Of a stretch of DNA of 64,000 nucleotides, positions 6,270 through 45,557 are shown piece after piece. How positions within the stretch are numbered: position 1 is the first letter of the stretch; the number at the start of each line of letters is the position of its first letter. Made by a program: the position numbers and the translations under genes. Origin of the DNA: Thermincola carboxydiphila (lineage in GTDB: Bacteria > Bacillota > Thermincolia > Thermincolales > UBA2595). The notes under the pieces are model-generated. The model ran no database searches. It was not told the origin of the DNA and saw nothing but the letters and a program-made list of their open reading frames with translations. The stretch spans positions 1-64,000 of the forward strand of contig JAENYP010000002.1 of assembly GCA_016841725.1 (NCBI GenBank). Direction: 5' to 3'.

Positions 6270-6773
6270 TTAGCCGGTCTGCTTCTCAGGTAAGTGACAC
6301 TGCTTGCAGGACTCATTCTCAAATCCCTCAAAGTAATTTTTGGTATGCCCCGCCGATTTATGGCAGGTCAGGCAGTCAAATTTTAACTGCTCATGCTGTT
6401 TATGAAAATTGACGACCCGCTCACCATACTTATCCTGCTGTGACATGTCATGACATTTAATACATCTGCTTTCCGGCACTTCTGTCTCTACCTCATCCAT
6501 ATTAACATCCTGAGTGAAATGAATATATACTTCCCTAAGCCCGTTGGCCTTGACCTTGGCCTTGGCAATGATTCCTTCATCCGTATGGCATTCATAACAG
6601 TGTAACGACTGGTGAACACCGGTATCCCACCCGGCAAAGGCCGTGTTCATTTCATGACAACTGTTGCAGAATCCTGTCTGTGATGTATATTCAACAGCTC
6701 CAATACTTAATACTGCTAAAATCAATACTCCAAGGATAATAATAAACATCTTCAGCTTCTTTCCGTCCGCCAT
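6270..6773 (-). CDS. Membrane-anchored pentaheme cytochrome c, NapC/NirT/NrfH type
   Basis: This 167-residue protein has one N-terminal membrane helix (about residues 8-27) and five CxxCH heme motifs: CNSCH, CYECH, CIKCH, CLTCH and CKQCH. The spacing of the first two motifs and the segment EMNTAFAGWDTGVH match the NapC/NirT/NrfH family. Those proteins are quinol dehydrogenases that take electrons from menaquinol and pass them to an exported partner. GGGAGGG precedes the ATG. It lies 32 bp downstream of the split-Soret-like cytochrome gene and upstream of a terminator, so the two are probably co-transcribed and may be partners. Family members usually have four hemes; the fifth here is at the C-terminus. 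Confidence 0.9.
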   Translation of the reverse strand: MADGKKLKMFIIILGVLILAVLSIGAVEYTSQTGFCNSCHEMNTAFAGWDTGVHQSLHCYECHTDEGIIAKAKVKANGLREVYIHFTQDVNMDEVETEVPESRCIKCHDMSQQDKYGERVVNFHKQHEQLKFDCLTCHKSAGHTKNYFEGFENESCKQCHLPEKQTG

Positions 6774-6805
6774 GCTGTTTATATCCCTCCCTCATTCAGT
6801 ATCTG

Positions 6806-7657
6806 TTAATCTTTCTTGGTATGGTCATCGTGGCAATCGATGCAGTTCATTTTACCCTGTTCGTTATCCAGCAGGCTCTTTTCTCCCTGGTGGCAGGCCA
6901 TGCAGTGGGAATATTCATTGGAAACCTTGAATGCGGGAGCAAACTTCTGTTCCAGGGCTGCATTGAGTAGTTCGGCAGCATGTGCCGCGGTATCACCACT
7001 GAGCTTGGCACAGCGTTCTTTTTTCGCTTTTTCATTAATCCTGGCATCGGCCGCATTTGCCCATGTACTCACAGAAACATGGCAAAGCGGGGAATTTGAT
7101 ACTGTTGTAATCTGATTCTTAATTTCGCAGTATCCTTCATGTTTATCTGAAGGGAATGGAAATTCAGTATACCACCCCATCAGTTCATTTCCAAGGTCAG
7201 CGTGGTCCTTGGCTGCCAGGTTTAGAATCAGCAGGGCACCATTTAAGGCGCCACACAGTGTTCCCCAGCTATATGCACCACCTGCTCCATACATAAACAT
7301 TTCTTTGGGCAGATTATTCCAAGGTCCCCCGACAGTCTCCTGAAGTGTTTCCAAAAGGGCGTTTCCTGCTGCATACATACAGCCACCCTTTTTGTAGTTC
7401 TCATACCCTCTTTTTCTGACCAATTCCACATCAAGTTTCTTATAAGTCCACGGCACAGCAGCAGTTTCACCTTTGGCAGTACCGGAAGTCTTTACTGCAC
7501 CGGCATCAGTTGGCGCAGTTGTGCCACATCCCACTATACCGGTAGCCATCATACCTGTTGCCAACGCCCCGGCACCCAGTAAAAACTTTCTCCTTGTAAG
7601 GCTCTTGGCCTGTTTCTCCAGACCCTCTTTGTCTGTAATCATTTTTTCTTCTGACAT
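6806..7657 (-). CDS. Tat-exported split-Soret-like cytochrome c
   Basis: This 283-residue protein begins with a twin-arginine signal (TRRKFLLGAGALATG, about residues 21-35) ending near a lipobox-like IVGCG. The middle has the cysteine pattern of the C_GCAxxG_C_C redox family (GGCMYAAGNALLE, YSWGTLCGALNGALL, then further cysteines). Two CxxCH motifs, CMACH and CIDCH, lie near the C-terminus. That combination resembles split-Soret cytochrome c of Desulfovibrio. GGGAGGG upstream of the ATG at 7657 decides the start over a longer reading. The NapC-type gene follows directly, suggesting a quinol-linked exported redox pair. The electron acceptor is unknown. Confidence 0.8.
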   Translation of the reverse strand: MSEEKMITDKEGLEKQAKSLTRRKFLLGAGALATGMMATGIVGCGTTAPTDAGAVKTSGTAKGETAAVPWTYKKLDVELVRKRGYENYKKGGCMYAAGNALLETLQETVGGPWNNLPKEMFMYGAGGAYSWGTLCGALNGALLILNLAAKDHADLGNELMGWYTEFPFPSDKHEGYCEIKNQITTVSNSPLCHVSVSTWANAADARINEKAKKERCAKLSGDTAAHAAELLNAALEQKFAPAFKVSNEYSHCMACHQGEKSLLDNEQGKMNCIDCHDDHTKKD

Positions 7658-7952
7658 CAAAAAACCCTCCCTGTTTTTTCTCAAATAATTATACTTCCAT
7701 CCCAATCACAAGCTCCTGTCCTTCAAGCACAACAGTTCGGAGATCATATTTGTGATGGCATTTTCTTATTTATAAAAACTGATAAAGACCACCTCTTTCC
7801 ACTTTCTACTTCCTACTTTTTACAATTTCCGTTTTGAATTATAGGTAAAATTGTCATTTAATTACATGCCGTATTTCTTAGATACTAAGTTCTAATCTCT
7901 TATCTAATTATCCAGTCTTGTTATATAGGCCTTTGTTAACATTCTACCTAGA

Positions 7953-8148: not shown

Positions 8149-8793
8149 CTAACCTTCTGCCACTCTAATAAGAATGGCTGTTATCTCAGCCCTGGTTATA
8201 TTTCTGGCCGGTTTAAAAGTCCCTTCAGGGTAACCGTTTATAATTCCTTGTTGGACACACAGATTTATGCTTTCGGTAAACCTCGCGCTGCTTATATCTG
8301 AGAACCCCGAATCCGTGATTTCTATGCCGGAAAAATCGGTATGCTGCTTAATTAAGGCATGAATTATGGCCACAACCTCTTCCCTGGTAATTTTCTTTTC
8401 CGGAGAGAAATCTATACCAAATATATTCTGTGCATCCTGACCGGTCATGTGACTCAGCATCTCCTTTGCCGCCCCGAATGCCCAGTGCCCTTTATTCATA
8501 TCAGCGATTATTCTTGAGTTATCATACATATCTCCCTCGGGGTAAAGGTCCCCGGCCATCCTGCTCATTATGGCAGCGAACTCTGCTCTGGTAATGTTGT
8601 TTTCGGGTTTAAAGGTCCCGTCAGGATAGCCATTAATATATCCTAATTGTTTTAATTTGTTTATTTCTTCATAAGCCCAGTGTGAAGACGTCAGGTCATT
8701 GAATTGCCCCGCCCATGATGGAAACAGGAAGGTGAAACTCAGAGCGGTTATCAGAGCAAGCATTAGTACCAGCAAGGAGGCTTTTTTAATCAT
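8149..8793 (-). CDS. S-layer homology (SLH) domain protein
   Basis: This 214-residue exported protein has a signal peptide (about residues 1-28) and then three SLH modules covering nearly all the rest. The first (about 32-85) carries HWAYEEINKLKQLGYINGYPDGTFKPENN-like consensus positions followed by ITRAEFA; the third repeats INGYPEGTFKP and ITRAEI. SLH triplets bind pyruvylated secondary cell-wall polymers and hold proteins on the surface. There is no further domain, so this is a bare anchor module, perhaps a structural wall protein. Its own terminator follows. The next gene upstream also carries SLH modules. Confidence 0.9.
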   Translation of the reverse strand: MIKKASLLVLMLALITALSFTFLFPSWAGQFNDLTSSHWAYEEINKLKQLGYINGYPDGTFKPENNITRAEFAAIMSRMAGDLYPEGDMYDNSRIIADMNKGHWAFGAAKEMLSHMTGQDAQNIFGIDFSPEKKITREEVVAIIHALIKQHTDFSGIEITDSGFSDISSARFTESINLCVQQGIINGYPEGTFKPARNITRAEITAILIRVAEG

Positions 8794-8916
8794 GGCAAAT
8801 TCTCCTCATTATGTTGATTTTATTAAAGATATCCATTTATATACTAAATACTATTTGACCATGTTTTGGTTTTTACCTCCCCAAAACGGCTTGTAATATT
8901 TGGTAAATTATTGACT

Positions 8917-11085
8917 TTACCTTGCATTAAGGAAATTATGTATGACCACTGCCGCCTGTCCTCTGGTAAGCTGTGCCGTTGGATTGAAATACCCGTCATT
9001 CCCCTGGACAATGTTCAGTCCATAGGCTACTGCCACATAACCCACAAGTTTCCTGTCGATCTTAGCAGCATCTTTAAAGGGCACGGTAAAAATACCTTTA
9101 TCAATTTCGGCAACATTAGCGTAGTTAAGCGCCCTGATAATAAACTTAACCGCATCCTGCCGTGTCATAAACGAATCAGGAGCCTGCTCACCCTCACGGA
9201 CTATGCCGCTGTTAATAAGAGTCCTGTAAAGTTCTTTATCATTTTCCTTATCAGGTTTATATGGGTAATATGAGTTAACGGTTTTTTGCAGTAAGTAGAG
9301 AAAGTCCCTTTGGGTTATCTTATTGTCAGGCTCAAATTTTTCCCCTGGCAGCGATATGCCGAAGATAGCCAGTTCCTTAATCTTATTTTCTGCATAGTGT
9401 CCGGTAATATCAGTGTATTGTGAAACATTATTTAAATTATAAACCTCACCATTGAAGTCCATGATCGCCCCATTATGGGGGTCTATATTTGCCGGGATAC
9501 CAGGCTTTAATGCATAAACAAGTTTTACATTCTCTACAAGACCATCATAAGGAGGAGGCAGAATTTTGGCTGCTGTATCCTGTTCTCTGTAAGGTGTGTA
9601 CTGCAGCTGCACTCCCACCTTTTCCAGCAGGAAGGCGTTAGCATCAGCCAAACTGATAATTCCTTCAGTCTTCGGAAGCTCTCCCTTGTACCAGTTATAG
9701 CTGTAGCTGATGACACTACCCGTTACCGCATCAACCGCAACACTAAAACCATTATCCGGGAAGTAAGCGCCATTGGTCTTCCGTTCAAATGTAAAATAAT
9801 ACTGCCTGGGTTTTTCATCTTCAGCCATTAATCTATTCTGCTGGTTCCAGGTAGTATACTCGGTTTCGTGATACCTTTCCGGCTGCATGGTTTTAATATA
9901 GTCGGTGGCAATCTTTAATGACTGTTTTTCATCATACTTGGGCTTATCATCATTTTCTCGATAATTGGATTTATAGAAATTTACCAGTTCACCTGTTTTC
10001 GCGTCAATGTTCACACTATAACTGTCATAAATCATAACATCTTTTCCGACTTGTTCCTTTACAAAGTACATGCTCCACAAATAATCCTGTCTATTTATCC
10101 AGCTTTTATACAGATTTATGTTGTTCACTTTATAATCATTTCCAATATTGAGCGCTTTCCTTACAGTTTCCTCTGCTTTGTCTTCATTCATAATGCCGGC
10201 AGCATTCTCAATCGCTTCACGCTCTTTGGGAGTAAGGGAAACTCCCTGATTTCCTCCGCCATAGCTGTGAAGGCCGGAATCTGCCGTCTTCATTTCACCG
10301 GCGCCACCTTCATAATAAATTCCGTAATAAGGTTCAGTAACAACTACTTCTCCCGTACCGGCATCAATTGCGTAATTATTATACACATTTGTATAAACAA
10401 GGTAGGGTTTATACTCGTCCGGTTCATATTTGATTTTATACTGCAATTTCAGTCCAAGATCCCGGACGTAAATTTTCTGGGCCTCGTCAAGAGTTATAGT
10501 GTCTTTGGAATCAAGAAACTCCAGCTCATAATTCCAGTTGCAGTTATAGTTTTCCACTTTACCGGTTACATTGTTGACCGATATATTGACACTGTTCCCG
10601 GAATAGGGAATTCCCTTCTCTACCCTGATATACCGGAAATAATATGATGAATCATTAACGTTCTGACGCTGGCCATCATCCTGGTACTGCAAATTTTCAA
10701 ATGGCGCTGAATTGGTCTTTTTAATAAAATCTTCCGCTTTTTTACGGGCCTCTTCCTTACTTATTGCCGGGAGTTTCGGTCTGTCATTTCCCGGACTGGG
10801 TGTGTAGGAGTAATAGCCGATAATCCTGCCCAATGTATCAATTGACACATTTATACTGCCCCGCTGATTACTTTCATCATTCCACATCAGGTCAAAGATA
10901 GTCCTTTCACCCTGTTTATGCATGTTGTAGCTGAAATTGTCATAGTCATCTGTGATTTCAAAAACAGTTTTAGCCATTTCAATGGCTTTTTCCAGTTCCC
11001 GGTCATACTGGGCAAAACTATAAGCCGGGAAAAGGAAAGTGGTGACAAAAACAATCACCAGTGACAGCGCAAGAACCCTTTTCAT
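8917..11085 (-). CDS. Surface protein with YcdB/YcdC-PepSY-like repeats and C-terminal SLH modules
   Basis: The 722-residue protein has a signal peptide (about 1-25), then two long related regions with PepSY-like motifs such as SKEEARKKAEDFIKK (near 100) and DAKTGELVNFY or DAVTGSVISYSY strings. This is the pattern of YcdB/YcdC-domain proteins of Bacillota. From about residue 550 there are three degenerate SLH modules, including HYAENKIKEL, SFMTRQDAVKF and GYFNPTAQLTRGQAA. PepSY-type domains often inhibit or regulate proteases, but the role here is unknown. It is likely anchored to the wall outside the membrane. It lies 123 bp upstream of the small SLH gene. Confidence 0.85.
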   Translation of the reverse strand: MKRVLALSLVIVFVTTFLFPAYSFAQYDRELEKAIEMAKTVFEITDDYDNFSYNMHKQGERTIFDLMWNDESNQRGSINVSIDTLGRIIGYYSYTPSPGNDRPKLPAISKEEARKKAEDFIKKTNSAPFENLQYQDDGQRQNVNDSSYYFRYIRVEKGIPYSGNSVNISVNNVTGKVENYNCNWNYELEFLDSKDTITLDEAQKIYVRDLGLKLQYKIKYEPDEYKPYLVYTNVYNNYAIDAGTGEVVVTEPYYGIYYEGGAGEMKTADSGLHSYGGGNQGVSLTPKEREAIENAAGIMNEDKAEETVRKALNIGNDYKVNNINLYKSWINRQDYLWSMYFVKEQVGKDVMIYDSYSVNIDAKTGELVNFYKSNYRENDDKPKYDEKQSLKIATDYIKTMQPERYHETEYTTWNQQNRLMAEDEKPRQYYFTFERKTNGAYFPDNGFSVAVDAVTGSVISYSYNWYKGELPKTEGIISLADANAFLLEKVGVQLQYTPYREQDTAAKILPPPYDGLVENVKLVYALKPGIPANIDPHNGAIMDFNGEVYNLNNVSQYTDITGHYAENKIKELAIFGISLPGEKFEPDNKITQRDFLYLLQKTVNSYYPYKPDKENDKELYRTLINSGIVREGEQAPDSFMTRQDAVKFIIRALNYANVAEIDKGIFTVPFKDAAKIDRKLVGYVAVAYGLNIVQGNDGYFNPTAQLTRGQAAVVIHNFLNAR

Positions 11086-36161: not shown

Positions 36162-37400
36162 TTAGTGATCCGGACCTGTAAGGGCAGTATAAGAAAAATG
36201 TCCTCCCAAAAGTTTATCCTTTTGTGTCGGCGATATGGTTTCATGTTTTACCAAAGATGTTAAAACACCGGATTTTTCGGTTTTTCCCAACAAAATAAAT
36301 CCTGCTAATTTTCTATTCCGGAAAACAAGTTTTTTATATGTCGAATTATTATCGGAAAGATAAAATGATTCATAATCAGGAAGTTCAGAATTGGCAATTC
36401 CCGCACAAACCAATGAGATGCCGCCTATATTAAGAGAATTCATATTGGTGCTGCCACTATACCGAACTTTTCTTCCCGCCATATTCAGGGCAGCGCAGCG
36501 CCCCTGCTCAACAGCATGGGGCCACAGTGGGTTCCATACCGGCGCATTTCTGACAACATCATACGCCTGGGCCACATCCCCTGCCGCGTATATTCCGGGG
36601 ACGCTTGTCTCCATAAATTCATCAACCAGAAGCCCTTTTTCTACGGCAACCGCCGTTTCCCCGAAAACCTTGAGTTCCGGTTTCACACCGGCAGCAATCA
36701 CAGCCATATCTGCCTCAAGGCTCGTGCCGTCAGACAGGGTAACACTGTTAAGCCTCCCCCCAGCATCACGGTTTACCTCACTAAAGGATTTCCCCAGGTA
36801 AAACCTGATCCCGGCTTCGGTCATCCTGTTCTGAATAATGCCGGCCGCCCTGCTGTCAAGAAAACCCGCCAGAATATGTGGTGCAATCCCCACCAGGCTA
36901 ACACACATCCCCCGTTTATTCAAGGCCATTGCTGCAGTTACCGCCACCAGCCCATCCCCAAGTATAGTGACAGCTTTACTCTCTGTCATTTCAGCAATGA
37001 TGCTGTCTGCATCTGCAATTGTTCTCAGGGTATATACTCCCAGCCCTTTTATTCCTTTAATATCCGGGAGTACCGGTGAGGCCCCGGATGCCACCAGAAG
37101 CCTGTCATAGGAAATAGCAGAAGCATCAGTTAAAGTAATATGCCTTTTCTCCGTATCCAGTCCTACTGCCTCTGTTCCGGCTATAAACCGCACCCCCGAA
37201 GCCCTTAACTGCTCATCAGACCTGATGAATACCGCATCCCTGCTGATTTGTCCTGAAATATAATAAGTTACCAGGCAGCGGGAATAGGCGATATCTTTTT
37301 CCCTGGAAACTACAGTAATCACCGCATCAGGATCAAGACGAACCAGGGTCTCGGCAGCGCTTATCCCGGCTGCACTGGCTCCTATAATAACATAATGCAC
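36162..37400 (-). CDS. FAD/NAD(P)-dependent oxidoreductase of the CODH-FNOR type
   Basis: The 412-residue flavoprotein starts with HYVIIGASAAGISAAETLVRLDP, a Rossmann FAD-binding motif. A second nucleotide motif near residue 145 reads AVTILGDGLVAVTAAMAL, and the FAD-closing GIYAAGDVAQAYD segment follows. It belongs to the pyridine-nucleotide disulfide oxidoreductase class without the CxxxxC pair. GGGGGTG selects the GTG start at 37400 against a longer reading. It lies 37 bp after cooS. In CooF-CooS-FNOR clusters the protein passes electrons from CooF to NAD(P)+. That role is inferred from context. Confidence 0.85.
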   Translation of the reverse strand: MHYVIIGASAAGISAAETLVRLDPDAVITVVSREKDIAYSRCLVTYYISGQISRDAVFIRSDEQLRASGVRFIAGTEAVGLDTEKRHITLTDASAISYDRLLVASGASPVLPDIKGIKGLGVYTLRTIADADSIIAEMTESKAVTILGDGLVAVTAAMALNKRGMCVSLVGIAPHILAGFLDSRAAGIIQNRMTEAGIRFYLGKSFSEVNRDAGGRLNSVTLSDGTSLEADMAVIAAGVKPELKVFGETAVAVEKGLLVDEFMETSVPGIYAAGDVAQAYDVVRNAPVWNPLWPHAVEQGRCAALNMAGRKVRYSGSTNMNSLNIGGISLVCAGIANSELPDYESFYLSDNNSTYKKLVFRNRKLAGFILLGKTEKSGVLTSLVKHETISPTQKDKLLGGHFSYTALTGPDH

Positions 37401-37437
37401 GGTTTCACCCCCGTTAGATACCAAGTTCTGGATTACT

Positions 37438-39303
37438 TTAGAGTCCCAGCGCTGTCCTCTTCTTTTGGATATGCTGCAGTGCCAATCCTGCTGCTGCCAC
37501 CGGGTCTGTTTCAACAGCAAAGACTGCCCCTACCACATCTTCAGCTCCCTGGGTCAGCAGCTGGACCACATTCGGGCTTCCCAGAACCGGAGGTACTGTC
37601 CCCAAGATGGTGTAAATTCCCGAACTGACCACATAAGCGCCAATGGAAACGGCTTTTTCAGACATCCATTCCGGAGCAGCCCCGGCCAGCGGCAAATCAC
37701 TGATATCCACTCCAAGGGCATTGGCCATAGCGGCAGCCACAGTAAGAATTCGGCTGATATCCACACACGACCCCATATGGAGTACAGGTGGGACTCCCAG
37801 GCTTTCACAAACCGCGCGCAGCCCGTCTCCGGCTTCCCGGGCAGCTTCAGGCAGGAGCAAACCCTGTTTGGCACAGGCAATCATGGCACACCCTGTCCCT
37901 ACCACCAGGATATCGTTTTTAATCAGTTCCCTGACAAAAGTAATGTGACCATAGTCGTGTTTATATTTTGGATTATTACATCCTACAACTGCTGCTATCC
38001 CTTTAATGGCACCGGATTTAACGGCATCAAGAAGGGGATTCAGGGAACCTCCCAATGCCTCAAGAATGGCCTCAACACTGAAGCCCGCCATGTATGCCAT
38101 TTTTTCATCAGGAATGTTTACTTTTTCCGGCCTGCGGTTTTTAAAGTTTTCCACTGCTGTCAGCACAATTTTTTTGGCTGTTTCCATGGCCTTGTGTTCA
38201 TCAAAGGGAATATGCTCAGCGCCGGGGAATTTTGCTTTGGGTGAAGTTGAAATAATCCTGGTATGATAGCATCCGGCCACCTGGGTCAAGGCAGGCATGA
38301 TACACTGGACATCAACTATCATTGCTTCCACAGCTCCAGTGATAATGGCCAGTTCCTGCTGCAGAAAATTCCCGGCAACCGGTACTCCATGGCGCATTAG
38401 AATTTCATTACCGGTGCAGCAGATGCCGCACACATTGATGCCTTTTGCTCCCAGCTTTGCAGCTTCAGCCAGGATCTGCTCATCACGGGCAGCATAAACA
38501 ATCATGTCAGACAGGGTCGGCTCATGACCATGGAGGATTATATTAACATGGTCTTCTTTCAATACCCCAAGATTTGAAGACCCTCTGACAGGCTTGGGAA
38601 CCCCGAAAAGGACATCGGAAATTTCAGTCGCAATATGGGAACCGCCCCACCCGTCACCCAGGGAGGTCCTCAGCCCGTGTAAAACCAGGTTGATATAATC
38701 ATTATCAACTCCAATATGGGTTCTGTGCAGGCATTCAACGATTTCCCTGTCAATACCCCTGGGAAGGATGTCAAGTTTTTCCCAGAGCTGTCTCCTCTTT
38801 TCAGGAACACGGTTTATAAACTGAAGTTTCCCTTTCGTACTGCCAAACTCCTCAAGGATTGCTGTGGCAAGGTCAAGAGCAATTTCGTTATTTCCCCTTC
38901 CCGCAGCAGCAATCCCAAACTCATTGGCAAGCGCTTTCAGTTTGGCTTCATCCTTAATGGTGTAATCTGCAGTATCACCCTTGGCAGCTGCATAGAGTGT
39001 ATTAACAATGTCCCGGCCATGGTCCGAATGTGCTGCCGCCCCGGCAGCTATAGCCCGCAGGAGATTCCTGGCTACAATGGTATCGGCAGCTGCCCCGCAG
39101 ACACCCTTTTCAGGACCGTCTCCAAAGGGATCAATCCGGCAGGGACCCATATTGCAGTTACGGCAGCAGATCCCCAACAACCCGAAACCGCACTGCGGCT
39201 GCTGTGCCTTAAGCCGGTCCCAGACTGTCTCTATTCCTTCCTGTTCAGCCTTGACCAGCATCTGTTGTGATGCCAGGTCAATGGTTATATCGTCAAACTT
39301 CAT
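37438..39303 (-). CDS. cooS: Anaerobic Ni-CO dehydrogenase catalytic subunit
   Basis: The 621-residue enzyme matches CooS. N-terminal cysteines CGFGLLGICCRNCNMGPCRIDPFG supply the B and D clusters. The C-cluster ligand positions are all visible: HGHEP, GICCTG, VQCIMP, GCNNPK, GTGCAM and MGSCVD. It interconverts CO and CO2 in the cytoplasm. The ATG overlaps the cooF stop (TAATG). The length and complete ligand set indicate an active enzyme. No ACS, hydrogenase (CooH) or CooC maturation gene lies in the window; nickel insertion must rely on factors elsewhere. The order CooF-CooS-FNOR suggests a role in NAD(P)H supply or redox control. Confidence 0.96.
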   Translation of the reverse strand: MKFDDITIDLASQQMLVKAEQEGIETVWDRLKAQQPQCGFGLLGICCRNCNMGPCRIDPFGDGPEKGVCGAAADTIVARNLLRAIAAGAAAHSDHGRDIVNTLYAAAKGDTADYTIKDEAKLKALANEFGIAAAGRGNNEIALDLATAILEEFGSTKGKLQFINRVPEKRRQLWEKLDILPRGIDREIVECLHRTHIGVDNDYINLVLHGLRTSLGDGWGGSHIATEISDVLFGVPKPVRGSSNLGVLKEDHVNIILHGHEPTLSDMIVYAARDEQILAEAAKLGAKGINVCGICCTGNEILMRHGVPVAGNFLQQELAIITGAVEAMIVDVQCIMPALTQVAGCYHTRIISTSPKAKFPGAEHIPFDEHKAMETAKKIVLTAVENFKNRRPEKVNIPDEKMAYMAGFSVEAILEALGGSLNPLLDAVKSGAIKGIAAVVGCNNPKYKHDYGHITFVRELIKNDILVVGTGCAMIACAKQGLLLPEAAREAGDGLRAVCESLGVPPVLHMGSCVDISRILTVAAAMANALGVDISDLPLAGAAPEWMSEKAVSIGAYVVSSGIYTILGTVPPVLGSPNVVQLLTQGAEDVVGAVFAVETDPVAAAGLALQHIQKKRTALGL

Positions 39304-39803
39304 TACTTACCCTCCTCCGCAAACCTAAAATTTATCAGATATTGATTTCTTTTATCCCTACTGAAAGCATCTATTTCTATAAATTTTATCGCCTTTGTAG
39401 GACATGCCTGTACACATGCAGGGACATCCTCATTAACACAGCGGTCACATTTTATAACAGTGTTTTCTTCCCTTTGCTGCGAAATTGCTCCAAAAGGACA
39501 TACCATGACACACATCCAGCAGCCCACACACCTGTCAGGGTTTACTTGGACAGTCTGTGTCTCCGCATCCCTGAACATGGCGCCTGACATACAGGCATCG
39601 ATACACCTGGCATCCTCACAGTGACGGCACTGCAGCGGAAAAGTTATTTTATCGCCCGTTTCTACACAAACCCGCTTTTTAGGTTTTTTCTTCTCAAATA
39701 CTGAGCCAATAAGGCTTTTCGATTCTGAATGGACAACCGCACAGGCGAGTTCACAGGATTTACACCCCAAACACCTGCTGACATCAATCATGACCTGCTT
39801 CAT
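39303..39803 (-). CDS. cooF: CooF-like 4Fe-4S electron-transfer protein
   Basis: The 166-residue protein has four 4Fe-4S cysteine sets: CLGCKSCELAC, CRHCEDARCIDAC, CVGCWMCVMVCP and CDRCVNEDVPACVQACP. This is the four-cluster ferredoxin of CooF/HycB type that takes electrons from CooS. The ATG at 39803 has GGGGTGGAGG upstream; a longer reading is not supported. cooS follows with overlapping stop and start codons. A sigma-H-like site lies about 90 bases upstream, after a long palindrome region. Confidence 0.93.
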   Translation of the reverse strand: MKQVMIDVSRCLGCKSCELACAVVHSESKSLIGSVFEKKKPKKRVCVETGDKITFPLQCRHCEDARCIDACMSGAMFRDAETQTVQVNPDRCVGCWMCVMVCPFGAISQQREENTVIKCDRCVNEDVPACVQACPTKAIKFIEIDAFSRDKRNQYLINFRFAEEGK

Positions 39804-39893
39804 TCCTCCACCCCCTTTCTGCAAAACGTCCCAGAAATATGTATATGTATTTTATGTTAATTTATATGTTATTTTCTGGTCTTACTCACTATT

Positions 39894-40126: not shown

Positions 40127-41323
40127 TTATTCAGCCTTTACCGGCTTCTTGCCCATTTCCTGCAAAACCTCATTTAACAAATCAACCTGCACAAATTCAT
40201 TTAAGGGTAAATCCTTGAAATGGCCTTCATTGATCATATAATCATGCAGCCCGGCAGCATAATTCATGCCTGGGTCATAGCTGACTGCTGCCTCCTGCCA
40301 GGACTTTTCAAATTTATCCAAAGTATTCTGCTTTTCCAGGTCTTCCATGGCTGCACCTTTATCAGCAAACCATTTAATACGCAGTTCCCTGTTCAATGCA
40401 GGCAGTTCATCCAGTTTCTCCAGAGCCTTGTCTGTTGACATAACATGAGCCTTCAAAAAGACTTTGACCAGCTCCGGATTATTATTAATCAGCTCTTTTT
40501 GCGTTGCCAGCCAGACACGGGGCTGAATTTCGCCAAACAGGCCATCCGGGTTAAGTGAAAAGACATGACTGCCCGGTACCATACTCAAGGCCGTCGGAAG
40601 GTTATTGGCATTATCAAAGTTAACAATAGCGGCATATTTCCCGTCAGCATAATTCTGCCAGAGGTCACTGACAATATTGTCCCAGACCACTTCCACAGTA
40701 CCTCCATATGTACTGGTCCCCAGCCCTACACCTGATAAAACCCTGTTCAGCTGAAAATCATCGGCATACCTGAGGTTTGCTATCCCCACTTTTTTCCCAT
40801 CCAGATCTTTAAGAGATTTTATTTCGGGCCGGGTAACCAGATTGACGTCATTGGACTGAACGCTTCCGGCAATTACTGTATATTTTTTACTTCCGCCATA
40901 CTTTGATTTTCCGGTGTTATAAGTTGAAAAAGCAGTGTGAGGAATATAAATGAATTCCGGGGCTCCTTTTTTCCTGTCCAACAGGGGATATACTTCCTGA
41001 AGGCCGTGGGCATCGATGAATTCAACCCTTTTCCCTGCCTTCTCCATTTCCTCAGCAAAGATTGGGTACTTCTGATTAATGAACACCTGTGCCGACCCAT
41101 TGGTCATGGCAACATAGGCAATACTCACCAAATCCTTGTCTTTGGTGACATCCCGGCCAATTTCTGCGTTCTTCTCAACTTCTACCACTTCCGGCTGTGC
41201 CTTATCCTGATTCTCCGGATTATTAGCCCCGCTTGGCGTTCCCGATTCACTGTTCCTGCCGCATCCGGCAGCAGCCAGAACCATCACCAGGATTAAAACC
41301 ATTACCCAATTTTTCTTTAACAA
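40127..41323 (-). CDS. Orphan solute-binding lipoprotein, NMT1/phosphonate-like
   Basis: The 398-residue protein has a lipoprotein signal (MVLILVMVLAAAGC) followed by a long Ser/Glu-rich linker and a type 2 periplasmic-binding fold (SIAYVAMTNGSAQVFINQKYPIFAEEM, later SLKDLDGKKVGIANLRYADDFQLNRVL). GGGAG nine bases upstream selects a TTG start at 41323, giving a standard leader. No ABC permease or ATPase accompanies it. It sits between the giant decaheme gene and the CO dehydrogenase operon, so it may serve an importer elsewhere or act as a receptor. The substrate is unknown. Confidence 0.75.
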   Translation of the reverse strand: MLKKNWVMVLILVMVLAAAGCGRNSESGTPSGANNPENQDKAQPEVVEVEKNAEIGRDVTKDKDLVSIAYVAMTNGSAQVFINQKYPIFAEEMEKAGKRVEFIDAHGLQEVYPLLDRKKGAPEFIYIPHTAFSTYNTGKSKYGGSKKYTVIAGSVQSNDVNLVTRPEIKSLKDLDGKKVGIANLRYADDFQLNRVLSGVGLGTSTYGGTVEVVWDNIVSDLWQNYADGKYAAIVNFDNANNLPTALSMVPGSHVFSLNPDGLFGEIQPRVWLATQKELINNNPELVKVFLKAHVMSTDKALEKLDELPALNRELRIKWFADKGAAMEDLEKQNTLDKFEKSWQEAAVSYDPGMNYAAGLHDYMINEGHFKDLPLNEFVQVDLLNEVLQEMGKKPVKAE

Positions 41324-41348: not shown

Positions 41349-41383
41349 ATATAGAGACCACGCAAATGCGTGGTCTCTATATT
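41349..41383. terminator. Perfect stem-loop after the decaheme gene
   Basis: ATATAGAGACCACGC and GCGTGGTCTCTATAT form a 15-base perfect stem with a four-base loop directly after the stop at 41385. The T-run is on the plus-strand side, so on the minus strand it may instead act as an RNA-stabilising end or depend on a factor. Confidence 0.7.
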
Positions 41384-41384
41384 T

Positions 41385-44300
41385 TTACTTATACCATATT
41401 TCCGTCCTGTAACCGAGATCTCCCGGTCCCGTGCCATCAGCTGAGACCGTGTTAAAACATCTGATAGTAATAAATCTGCCTTCCTTCTCAAACTCTTCGG
41501 AGAAGTAAGTTGAGGTATCTGACGGCATTCCTGACTTAAGTATCCAGCCATTGGCCATTAATTGTTCGTAATAGTAATTCCATACTGTGCCTGCAGCAAT
41601 ATCCGCTCTTCTGGAGGATATAACCACCTGTCCGTTCGCGTAACCATCCGGAGTTGTAGATTCCCCGGTGAAAATGGATGCTTCCATTGGTGTACTCCAC
41701 TGGAAATTGTCATTAAGAGGGATATCTCCCGGGACCTTGTCAGCAAAAGTCATGTTATGCCCCTGCCTGTGGCATCCCGCACAATCAAGGCTGTCACGGG
41801 CAATAGTCCTCTTGACTTCGTTAATGGTACTGGTATGGCAGGTATCACAGCTGTAATTCTTGCCTGCCGTTGTGGCATTACTTATATGTTCTGATGTAAG
41901 TTCGGCCTTATGGCAGGTCTGGCAGTTGCTGTCCAGGCTGCCTGTATGTACAGTGCCGTGGTCAGCGTTCTCATGACATGAGAGGCAGTTCTTGTCATTA
42001 TTGGCAATAGCGCTCTTTATCTTCGTGTCAGTACTCATATGGCAGGTGTTACATGTTATCGGGCTGCCATTGCCGTCTACCCTGCCTGCTCTGGCATGCT
42101 CCCTGGTCAGAGAAGCCGAGTGGCAGTTGCTGCAGTCGGAGGCAGGCACCTTATGGAGGTCAGGTATGTCATGGTTATCCATAACCCTGGTAGCCTTGTA
42201 CAGGTAGCCTACATGTGCCTTGGCCTGGGAACCGGGCTGGTGACAGATTATACAGTCAAAAATTTCCCGGCTCTGTTTTACCCTGATGGGGAACATGGTA
42301 TCATAACCTGCGGCACTGTATTGAATATTAGTAGTATAACCGTGGCCTTCTCCCCAGTCCTCCATTTCATCAGGGTCACCATGGCACTGGGCACAACCTG
42401 CATATGCTGTAATATAATCATGGCACTCCCCGCAATCGGCGCTGTGACTGCCGGAAAACTGCAGTTCCCGGTGCATGGAGCTTTCAATGGGAATGCTCGT
42501 ATTGCTGACATCGTGGCAGGCCGTGCAATTGGTATAATTGGCATCATCCATATCAGGATACCGGTTGGAATTGGTGTAGAACTTCCATGTCTTTGTGGTT
42601 AACAATCCCTGATCGTCTGCCACAGTAAGGATGACTGTATGGTAGCTTTCATCACTCAGCGGTTGGGCCGGTGTGTATGATACCTTCCCGGAGGCCGGGT
42701 CAAAGCTGTGGTTTACCGCAGCCCCGTCCAGTTTCATATCAATTGAAGCAATAGTACCATTGGGATCTCTGACCACTGCCGATATTTCCGGTTCCAAACT
42801 CTCAATGCCATATTGAAGAGGTGTAAAACCGGTTATAACCGGCGGTGACTGAACGGTAAACGTTACCGGATAATTCTTCGTATTACCCAGCTCATCACTG
42901 TAGGTCAGAGTCATGGTATATTCACCGTCTCTGATCACACTTTCGTGACTCAGATAAGCTTCGGTCCTGTCTGTGACAATATAGTCCCCTGTACACGAAT
43001 CATTAAAGCCCCGGTAACGGAGGTTAAGATTCAGGGAATCCATGGACACGATACTGCCATTTAGGGTTTCAGTACCCCTTAAGGCTGCCGAGGCACCCTG
43101 TATATTAATCAGGTCATCCAGCTGTGCAGTAAATTTGAGGATACCGTTTGTGATTACCAGCCCATTATCAAAAGATTTTGTAGTACCGGCAACACCCGTA
43201 TAATCAGTCCTGTAAAGGAAAAACTTCATTTCCGGAGGGGTGGAATCCTTGATAAAATCCCAGGTCTGTGAACCGGTATTGCTAAAAACATCCTCAACCT
43301 CAACATATACCGTAGTGTTTCCGTCAGAAATACTCCCTGCAAAGGAAACCGTTGCGGCATCAGGGTCAACTACCGGCTCCACAGGCTGTCCGTTTACCTG
43401 CATCAAGGCGCTGGCCCAGTTTATCTCATTCCCGTCACTTACCGTGACAGAAATACCTGTCCCCTTGTTTTTACTCCCGGGAGCCGGAGATATACTGCTG
43501 AATTCAGGAGCCACTCCAACAGTAAATGACCAGGTTTCTGTCATCATATTGCCTTTGGTATCAGCTATGCTGACCTCAGCAGTGTGAGTCCCGTCTTCCA
43601 GCCCTGAAGCCGGAACACTTACCGTTCCTTCCCTGTAGCTGTCAACAACCCAGACCGTCTCAGTCCAGCTGCTGCAGGAGTCTCCGTAAGTCCTGGTCTC
43701 ACTATGGCCCTTGTATTCAAACACCGGGGTAACCGGAACACCGTCAAGTTTCGCCCCGACACTGGCCTTATCAAGGTTGTCCTGGGCATCTTTAACAGAT
43801 AATGTCACCACCGGATTTGAAACAGTTACCCTACCTCCCTTTTCAGGGGTCCGGACAACAGGCTCAGGTGAAGATGTATCTGTGTTAAACTGCCAGGCAG
43901 TGGAACCCAGGTTGCCTGAAGTGTCACTTACTTCTATATAGGCCTCATAACTTCCGCTGGGGAAACTGCCGTCATAATAAACCGTGTTTGTCATACTGTC
44001 AACAGCATGGGAAACAACTGCCCCGTTTACCTTCATAACCAGAGTATCCCAATCAATGGCATTGGAATCCTTAACCACTGCAGAAATCCTGGCAACCCCG
44101 CCCTGACTGCTCCCTGCAGCGGGTACAAACCCGCTGAACGACGGCGGTGTGCCTACACTGAATGACCATGTTTCTGTCATGGTATTCCCTTTTGTATCAG
44201 CTATGCTTATTTCTACAGTATGGCTGCCGTCCTTAAGTCCGGAAGCCGCAAAGCTTATCGTTCCTTCCCTGTAGCTGTCAACTACCCATACGGTTTCTGT

Positions 44301-45557
44301 CCATGTCGTGCAGGAATCACCATAGGTCCTGGTTTCATTATGTCCTTTAAACTTGAATACCGGTGTTACCGCAACACCGTCCAGCTTGGCAGTGGCGCTG
44401 GCTTGATTTAGATTGTCCAGGCTGTCCCTCACCACGAGAGAAACCTGCTGACCGGCATTCTCTATTGTACTGCCCTGTTCCGGAGTCCGGGTAACCGGCT
44501 CAGGAGACCCGGTATCTGTGGTAAACTGCCATTTCTTTGTCCCCAGGTTTCCATCTGAATCTGCGGCCTCCAGATAAACTTCATAACTGCCGGTAGGAAA
44601 ACTGCCGTCATAATATACTGTATTTGCTGCTCCGTCAACATTATGTGCTACGATTACTCCATTTATTTTCATGACCACACTGTCCAGGTCGACTGAATTG
44701 GTATCACTTATCACGGCAGAAACCCTGGTAACCGTCCCCTGGAAGCTGCCGGCCCCAGGTACAAGCCCGCTGAACGACGGCGGTGTGCCTACCGTGAATG
44801 ACCAGGCTTCTGTCATAGTATTACCTTTTATGTCAGCTATGCTTACCTCCACCTCATGGGGTCCGTCAGCAAGTCCTGAAGCTGCAAAACTTACCGTCCC
44901 TTCCCTGTAACTGTCCACAACCCATACTGTCTGGGTCCAGGTACTGCAGGAATCACTATAGGTCCTGGTTTCATTATGTCCTTTAAATTTAAACACAGGT
45001 GTTACCGCTTTACCATCAAGTTTTAGCCTTAGGGTAGTTTGGTCAAGGTTGTCCAGCCTGTCACTGATGCTCATGGAAATCTGCTGGCTGGGAGAGGATA
45101 TGACTGCATCCCTGGCAGGAATTATGTTTGCCGGGTCTGGAGCGGCATCAACCGTAAAAGTCCAGGAATCAGTTTCGTCACTTCCATTTATGGAATCATA
45201 AACACCGACACTGACTGTGTAATCACCGTCTTGCAGCCGTCCCGGAGGAGTATAAGATATTAGGCACGTTCCCTCCGAAATTTCGGCCAAAGGCTGCACA
45301 GTTTCGGAGTTAATTGTCATACTTACACTATCAGCAGAAACAGTCCCTTCGGTGAATGATATGTTGATTCCTATCTCAGGTACTGCATTACCGGTAGTGC
45401 TCCCACCAACCGGGTACTGACCGCTGTATGAAACCCCACCCGCGGCGGCTGCTGCAGCAACATAAGCGGATACAGCCGCCACAAGAACACACAAAATCAA
45501 AATCAGCCTTTTGGGAAGGCTCATCAAACGATAAGCACTAACGATTTTTTCTGTCAA
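41385..45557 (-). CDS. Giant surface protein: Ig-like repeats fused to a decaheme cytochrome domain
   Basis: This 1390-residue protein has a signal peptide (about 10-40), then beta-rich Ig/bacterial-surface modules. Three of them are near-identical units of about 212 residues (roughly 150-780), each containing the block TYGDSCTTWTETVWVVDSYREG. More divergent modules follow to about 1000. Ten CxxCH motifs (CTACH, CGECH, CAQCH, CIICH, CSNCH, CNTCH, CLSCH, CQTCH, CDTCH, CAGCH) lie at about 1005-1265, and a heme-free domain of about 125 residues ends it. The TTG start has AGGAGG upstream. No LPXTG or SLH anchor was seen. A stalk lifting a heme module across the wall is inferred. Confidence 0.88.
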   Translation of the reverse strand: MTEKIVSAYRLMSLPKRLILILCVLVAAVSAYVAAAAAAGGVSYSGQYPVGGSTTGNAVPEIGINISFTEGTVSADSVSMTINSETVQPLAEISEGTCLISYTPPGRLQDGDYTVSVGVYDSINGSDETDSWTFTVDAAPDPANIIPARDAVISSPSQQISMSISDRLDNLDQTTLRLKLDGKAVTPVFKFKGHNETRTYSDSCSTWTQTVWVVDSYREGTVSFAASGLADGPHEVEVSIADIKGNTMTEAWSFTVGTPPSFSGLVPGAGSFQGTVTRVSAVISDTNSVDLDSVVMKINGVIVAHNVDGAANTVYYDGSFPTGSYEVYLEAADSDGNLGTKKWQFTTDTGSPEPVTRTPEQGSTIENAGQQVSLVVRDSLDNLNQASATAKLDGVAVTPVFKFKGHNETRTYGDSCTTWTETVWVVDSYREGTISFAASGLKDGSHTVEISIADTKGNTMTETWSFSVGTPPSFSGFVPAAGSSQGGVARISAVVKDSNAIDWDTLVMKVNGAVVSHAVDSMTNTVYYDGSFPSGSYEAYIEVSDTSGNLGSTAWQFNTDTSSPEPVVRTPEKGGRVTVSNPVVTLSVKDAQDNLDKASVGAKLDGVPVTPVFEYKGHSETRTYGDSCSSWTETVWVVDSYREGTVSVPASGLEDGTHTAEVSIADTKGNMMTETWSFTVGVAPEFSSISPAPGSKNKGTGISVTVSDGNEINWASALMQVNGQPVEPVVDPDAATVSFAGSISDGNTTVYVEVEDVFSNTGSQTWDFIKDSTPPEMKFFLYRTDYTGVAGTTKSFDNGLVITNGILKFTAQLDDLINIQGASAALRGTETLNGSIVSMDSLNLNLRYRGFNDSCTGDYIVTDRTEAYLSHESVIRDGEYTMTLTYSDELGNTKNYPVTFTVQSPPVITGFTPLQYGIESLEPEISAVVRDPNGTIASIDMKLDGAAVNHSFDPASGKVSYTPAQPLSDESYHTVILTVADDQGLLTTKTWKFYTNSNRYPDMDDANYTNCTACHDVSNTSIPIESSMHRELQFSGSHSADCGECHDYITAYAGCAQCHGDPDEMEDWGEGHGYTTNIQYSAAGYDTMFPIRVKQSREIFDCIICHQPGSQAKAHVGYLYKATRVMDNHDIPDLHKVPASDCSNCHSASLTREHARAGRVDGNGSPITCNTCHMSTDTKIKSAIANNDKNCLSCHENADHGTVHTGSLDSNCQTCHKAELTSEHISNATTAGKNYSCDTCHTSTINEVKRTIARDSLDCAGCHRQGHNMTFADKVPGDIPLNDNFQWSTPMEASIFTGESTTPDGYANGQVVISSRRADIAAGTVWNYYYEQLMANGWILKSGMPSDTSTYFSEEFEKEGRFITIRCFNTVSADGTGPGDLGYRTEIWYK
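43500..45120. repeat. Three ~636-bp tandem repeats in the decaheme gene
   Basis: Nearly identical segments begin near 43628, 44262 and 44900, a spacing of about 636 bp. They encode the Ig-like units of the surface protein. The closeness at DNA level suggests recent duplication or ongoing recombination, so repeat number may vary between strains. Confidence 0.8.

Follow-up and report, generated by a model that had tools for sequence, protein, structure and literature searches.

The window, a 64,000-nucleotide stretch of DNA, contains a gene that probably encodes a Sec-exported, Ig-stalked decaheme c-type cytochrome, displayed at the cell surface for electron transfer and carrying a heme-free C-terminal domain (CTD) that may dock or cap it. 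The CTD, which measures about 125 residues, defines a family of multiheme cytochromes from electrode- and iron-reducing Thermincola relatives; the domain carries no name in the searched libraries and is retained while the stalk and the heme number vary. As listed in Table 1, the chain runs from a signal-like N-terminus through approximately nine Ig-like domains and ten CxxCH motifs to the CTD, which has no heme motif. A sequence-only reading had placed a signal peptide, Ig repeats, ten CxxCH motifs, and a heme-free C-terminal domain on one chain, with which the open reading frame (ORF), the motifs, and the Pfam matches agree. Its view of the product as an exported multiheme cytochrome with an Ig-type stalk in a Thermincola relative is likewise borne out by the signal-like N-terminus, the CxxCH motifs, and the match to Big_13.

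Table 1. Features of the cytochrome locus, in window positions.
Feature	Positions	Strand	Basis or remark
Multiheme cytochrome gene	41385-45557	-	1390 aa; TTG start, GGAGGG ribosome-binding site 5' of TTG
Signal peptide region, aa 1-42	45432-45557	-	Read from sequence: basic n-region, hydrophobic stretch, AAAAAAG
Stalk, aa ~43-1000, ~9 Ig-like domains	42558-45431	-	Big_13 match; domain count from sequence reading
Cys-Ig domain 1, aa 139-258	44784-45143	-	TYSDSCSTWT
Cys-Ig domain 2, aa 351-470	44148-44507	-	TYGDSCTTWT
Cys-Ig domain 3, aa 563-682	43512-43871	-	TYGDSCSSWT
Cys-Ig domain 4, divergent, aa ~771-905	42843-43247	-	C855; 4 Cys-Ig matches in ORF
Decaheme region, aa 1011-1263, ten CxxCH	41769-42527	-	Cytochrome_C7 match; 11 further His
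CTD, heme-free, aa 1264-1390	41388-41768	-	Family alignments and AF2 model
15-bp hairpin between cytochrome and lipoprotein genes	41349-41382	.	Related hairpin at the same place in L076
Lipoprotein, NMT1/THI5-like substrate-binding domain	40127-41319	-	NMT1 35.4 bits; directly downstream of cytochrome

Orthologue and Ig-Like Stalk

The window genome (G000) comprises 3.88 Mb in 40 contigs. An orthologue of the cytochrome, L076, was found in a congeneric genome within a syntenic block; it is equally long (1390 aa), shares 85% identity, and retains 10/10 CxxCH motifs and 4/4 Cys-Ig cysteines. The dN/dS of ~0.17 between the two indicates that the window cytochrome is under purifying selection. Since length, hemes, cysteines, and synteny are all kept at this identity and dN/dS, the architecture is not a product of chance. 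The N-terminal signal-like region was read as closing with an Ala-rich, AxA-type end, and resembles the N-termini of L076 and another locus, L067.

The Pfam profile Big_13 matched the stalk with 99.2 bits over three stretches (cut-off 27), which identifies its modules as Big_13 Ig-like domains. Some of them differ from Big_13 in having an inserted segment with one conserved cysteine and a DxC[TS] motif, and are denoted Cys-Ig here. The block TYxDSCxxWT recurs at aa 199, 411, and 623, giving a period of 212 aa, and each 212-aa unit is composed of two Ig-like domains, a Cys-bearing one and a plain one. The sequence-only reading had described three nearly identical 212-residue beta-rich repeats; the number and the period hold, but the units share only 64, 59, and 49% identity. 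The conserved cysteine and TYGDSC-WT block that it saw in each repeat proved to be the cysteine-bearing Ig insertion, and the search it proposed for a TYGDSC-type repeat family did find such a family in a survey of 399 genomes.

The Cys-Ig module matched in 31 of these 399 sampled genomes at E ≤ 0.001, and all strong matches (E below 1e-9) in this search lay within CTD-positive genomes. Most of the strong Cys-Ig proteins found were CTD cytochromes. The module also occurs outside them, in a multiheme protein without CTD (L068:2755-7836, an ORF of 1693 residues with 38 CxxCH motifs and three Cys-Ig domains) and in a Calx-beta protein of a congeneric genome (L069), which is a real heme-free Cys-Ig protein. 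Two other heme-free candidates were set aside: L067 runs into a contig edge and is similar to the N-terminal part of the window protein, so that it is probably a truncated orthologue, and L032:4664-5617 abuts an ORF with hemes and CTD and may be part of a split or frameshifted gene. Our literature searches found no papers on Ig-like multiheme proteins.

Decaheme Region and the CTD Family

The decaheme region matched Cytochrome_C7 (PF14522) with 37.8 bits against a cut-off of 24.8. Together with ten CxxCH motifs and 11 other histidines counted in the region, this identifies a multiheme c-type cytochrome with several CxxCH motifs and candidate axial histidines. The further histidines would be enough for bis-His ligation, which suggests electron transfer more than catalysis. 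ResB homologues are present in the window genome, and the c-type heme would be attached outside the membrane by a ResB-type apparatus. An AlphaFold model of the heme region plus CTD gave a pLDDT of 52, with the heme region mostly below 50, which was too low for a fold search.

Searches with the CTD against Pfam, NCBIfam, and PDB sequences yielded no noteworthy match. Its AF2 model (aa 1259-1390; built from the window sequence and eight relatives) exhibited a mean pLDDT of 86.2 and an alpha/beta layout, for which Foldseek detected no fold match in the PDB at E ≤ 0.001. The domain is present in 9/10 genomes of the class and in 15 of the 399 sampled genomes of the phylum, one of these 15 matching weakly; contigs were scanned with a profile built with closer relatives. 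In all 30 complete CTD ORFs (12 genomes; a duplicate locus, L080, is omitted from the count), the CTD is C-terminal and preceded by 8-14 CxxCH motifs, and a histidine four residues past the last CxxCH is invariant in the family alignment. The window protein belongs to this family, since the conserved CTD ends its multiheme chain, and it is one of seven CTD-ending cytochromes in its genome. Beyond the 30, L091 has ten CxxCH motifs, and the open frame L092 has three together with a divergent CTD. A match in Poseidonia (L035) was discarded, as it covered 36 residues around one heme motif. The stalks of the family are mostly Cys-Ig, with FlgD-type Ig in L016:4512-8183, and some members have no stalk. 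In the CTD tree, several paralogues of the window genome cluster with counterparts of similar architecture from other genera, with mixed support. The window CTD has a pI of 4.4, and 27 of the 30 distinct CTDs have a pI below 6.5, which disfavors a basic, wall-polymer-binding domain.

A 370-aa membrane protein without hemes (L046:1471-2580) has an unannotated extracytoplasmic C-terminal domain that can be aligned to positions 54-115 of the CTD, with the features DIP, YY..L...GW, and F.KG.R in common. This match to the CTD profile is weak (17.5 bits; E 8e-4 in another search); it suggests a wider CTD superfamily and is regarded as a lead only.

Wall Pathway and Gene Neighborhood

Contig C25 of the window genome carries, in this order, genes for a 10-heme NapC/NirT membrane cytochrome, a 12-heme and a 17-heme cytochrome, TPR and NHL proteins, a 6-heme cytochrome, and a 14-heme cytochrome ending in the CTD. 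The same cluster order was found, with 48-69% identity, in G009, a 3.2-Mb genome from another family of the same order as the window genome. TherJR_1117 and TherJR_1122 have 10 and 6 hemes, respectively, and TherJR_1122/CwcA has been proposed as a wall-crossing cytochrome (PMC7911101). The C25 cluster plausibly fits this ImdcA-CwcA wall pathway, as judged by heme counts, spacing, and gene order. In both genomes, the 14-heme CTD cytochrome directly follows the CwcA-like gene, and directly past it in G009 lies an ORF of 2115 residues with 58 CxxCH motifs (L083:8701-15048). A 58-heme protein has been reported from T. ferriacetica (PMC4582578, PMC7096707), which this ORF fits, in accord with G009 probably being this species. 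Bioelectrochemistry has yet to explain how electrons move across and beyond the thick Gram-positive wall; as a CTD member adjoins the proposed wall cytochrome in this probable T. ferriacetica genome, the role of the domain is testable in a cultured electroactive organism.

Other candidate redox genes were noted in the window genome. Contig C9 has a 3062-residue open frame with 42 CxxCH motifs (L070:7744-16929), and window positions 6270-7705 hold two adjacent ORFs, one membrane cytochrome-like with five CxxCH motifs, the other with two CxxCH motifs and a twin-arginine-like N-terminus. Further along the window lie genes for CO dehydrogenase, an iron-sulfur protein, and an NAD-linked oxidoreductase. 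Those at 36162-39824 (NAD-linked oxidoreductase, CO dehydrogenase catalytic subunit, and ferredoxin-like protein) adjoin the lipoprotein and cytochrome genes and are conserved in G002; the matching stretch of the congeneric genome G001 (L088, a contig end) has the lipoprotein and a TPR gene, with no oxidoreductase, CO dehydrogenase, or ferredoxin-like ORFs listed between them. An M23 peptidase gene adjoins the FlgD-Ig CTD cytochrome in the window genome, and a BLAST-related ORF occupies the same position in G009.

Wall anchoring was examined in both the protein and the genome. The Pfam scan detected no SLH domain in the window cytochrome and no sortase was matched in the genome, in agreement with the sequence-only reading, which saw no wall anchor. 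SLH domains are plentiful in the genome, and SLH matches occur within the window at 8149-9081, in and near the ORF 8149-8793.

Proposed Role

We propose that electron transfer by the window protein probably takes place at the cell surface and not through the wall, with its heme unit most likely displayed there and fed by other cytochromes. The stalk would act as a mechanical, not an electrical, element, holding the heme unit at the surface or further out. There, electrons would pass between the protein and other envelope cytochromes, as well as an external acceptor or a partner cell. The CTD may pack against or cap the last heme and may serve to dock the cytochrome onto a partner or a structure of the surface. 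Reach would not be a family-wide requirement, since some CTD members are stalkless.

The sequence-only reading instead had the Ig stalk span the wall, making the protein itself a wall-crossing electron conduit. An Ig domain is roughly 4 nm long, so that approximately nine of them would reach about 35-40 nm. Gram-positive walls measure 20-80 nm (PMC7911101). With such a stalk, the heme unit could lie outside, yet its electrons would then need another route: the motif count over the whole ORF found no CxxCH in the ~1000 stalk residues, and all ten motifs fall within 253 residues at the far end (motif span aa 1011-1259). Since the stalk has no heme motifs, the window protein would not conduct through the wall alone. 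The stalkless family members also count against a conduit, and another wall route is plausibly present in the CwcA-like cluster. We therefore consider the conduit highly improbable.

It is rather unlikely that the protein is an Ig adhesin carrying a heme unit, serving in contact between cells and in direct interspecies electron transfer. Adhesins are commonly built as tandem Ig and Calx-beta proteins, and L069 provides a heme-free Cys-Ig/Calx-beta protein in a congeneric genome; however, the strong Cys-Ig proteins found were mostly CTD cytochromes, and neither an adhesive domain nor a ligand was recognized for the window protein. The NMT1-like lipoprotein beside several CTD members could point elsewhere and counts against surface display for electron transfer: cytochrome and lipoprotein may work together at the envelope, with a soluble substrate or a shuttle instead of minerals. 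Relatives of the lipoprotein adjoin CTD cytochromes in eight loci, one of which (L073) is from another family of the phylum, and at one locus a chemoreceptor and a pentaheme lipoprotein are encoded as well. A lipoprotein-family fragment (81/379 positions, 90-aa frame) also lies near a CTD cytochrome in G005. Such a pairing nevertheless appears quite improbable, as most CTD cytochromes have no lipoprotein neighbor, and among the 14 lipoprotein matches below E 1e-140 in the class search, six are not adjacent to a CTD cytochrome, against eight that are; three of the six lie beside a hybrid-cluster-like protein (L085, L086, and L090). The hairpin between the two window genes speaks against it as well, and because of this hairpin co-transcription is not claimed. 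The adjacency of substrate-binding lipoprotein and CTD cytochrome, seen for about half of the lipoprotein relatives, is put forward as a new lead.

Within surface display for electron transfer, a further and speculative proposal, which we think unlikely, is that the CTD and Cys-Ig insertions form a dedicated surface-display or assembly system. Through the CTD, multiheme units would be linked with one another or with a common partner, and the single cysteines of the insertions would cross-link stalks, giving a cytochrome layer outside the wall.

Comparison with Known Multiheme Cytochromes

The window protein has ten hemes in common with the MtrC/OmcA-type decaheme cytochromes. Its heme motifs, however, lie in one run, and the sequence shows no pair of pentaheme units separated by a beta-barrel domain; the match to MtrC/MtrF domain II/IV (PF22113; 27.6 bits) falls below the cut-off of 30. 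At the level of sequence, this separates it from the type. ImdcA, PdcA, and CwcA (PMC7911101) are multiheme c-type cytochromes of the same bacterial order; their reported descriptions contain no Ig stalk, and by description this sets the window protein apart from them. OcwA is a nonaheme protein with an NrfA/MccA-related fold (PMC6703420). The window protein, with ten CxxCH motifs and no match to OcwA in the PDB sequence search up to E 0.1, is not assigned to the OcwA type by its sequence. It resembles OcwA (TherJR_2595; PMC6703420) as a Gram-positive multiheme cytochrome, and the surface location known for OcwA is the one we infer for the window protein.
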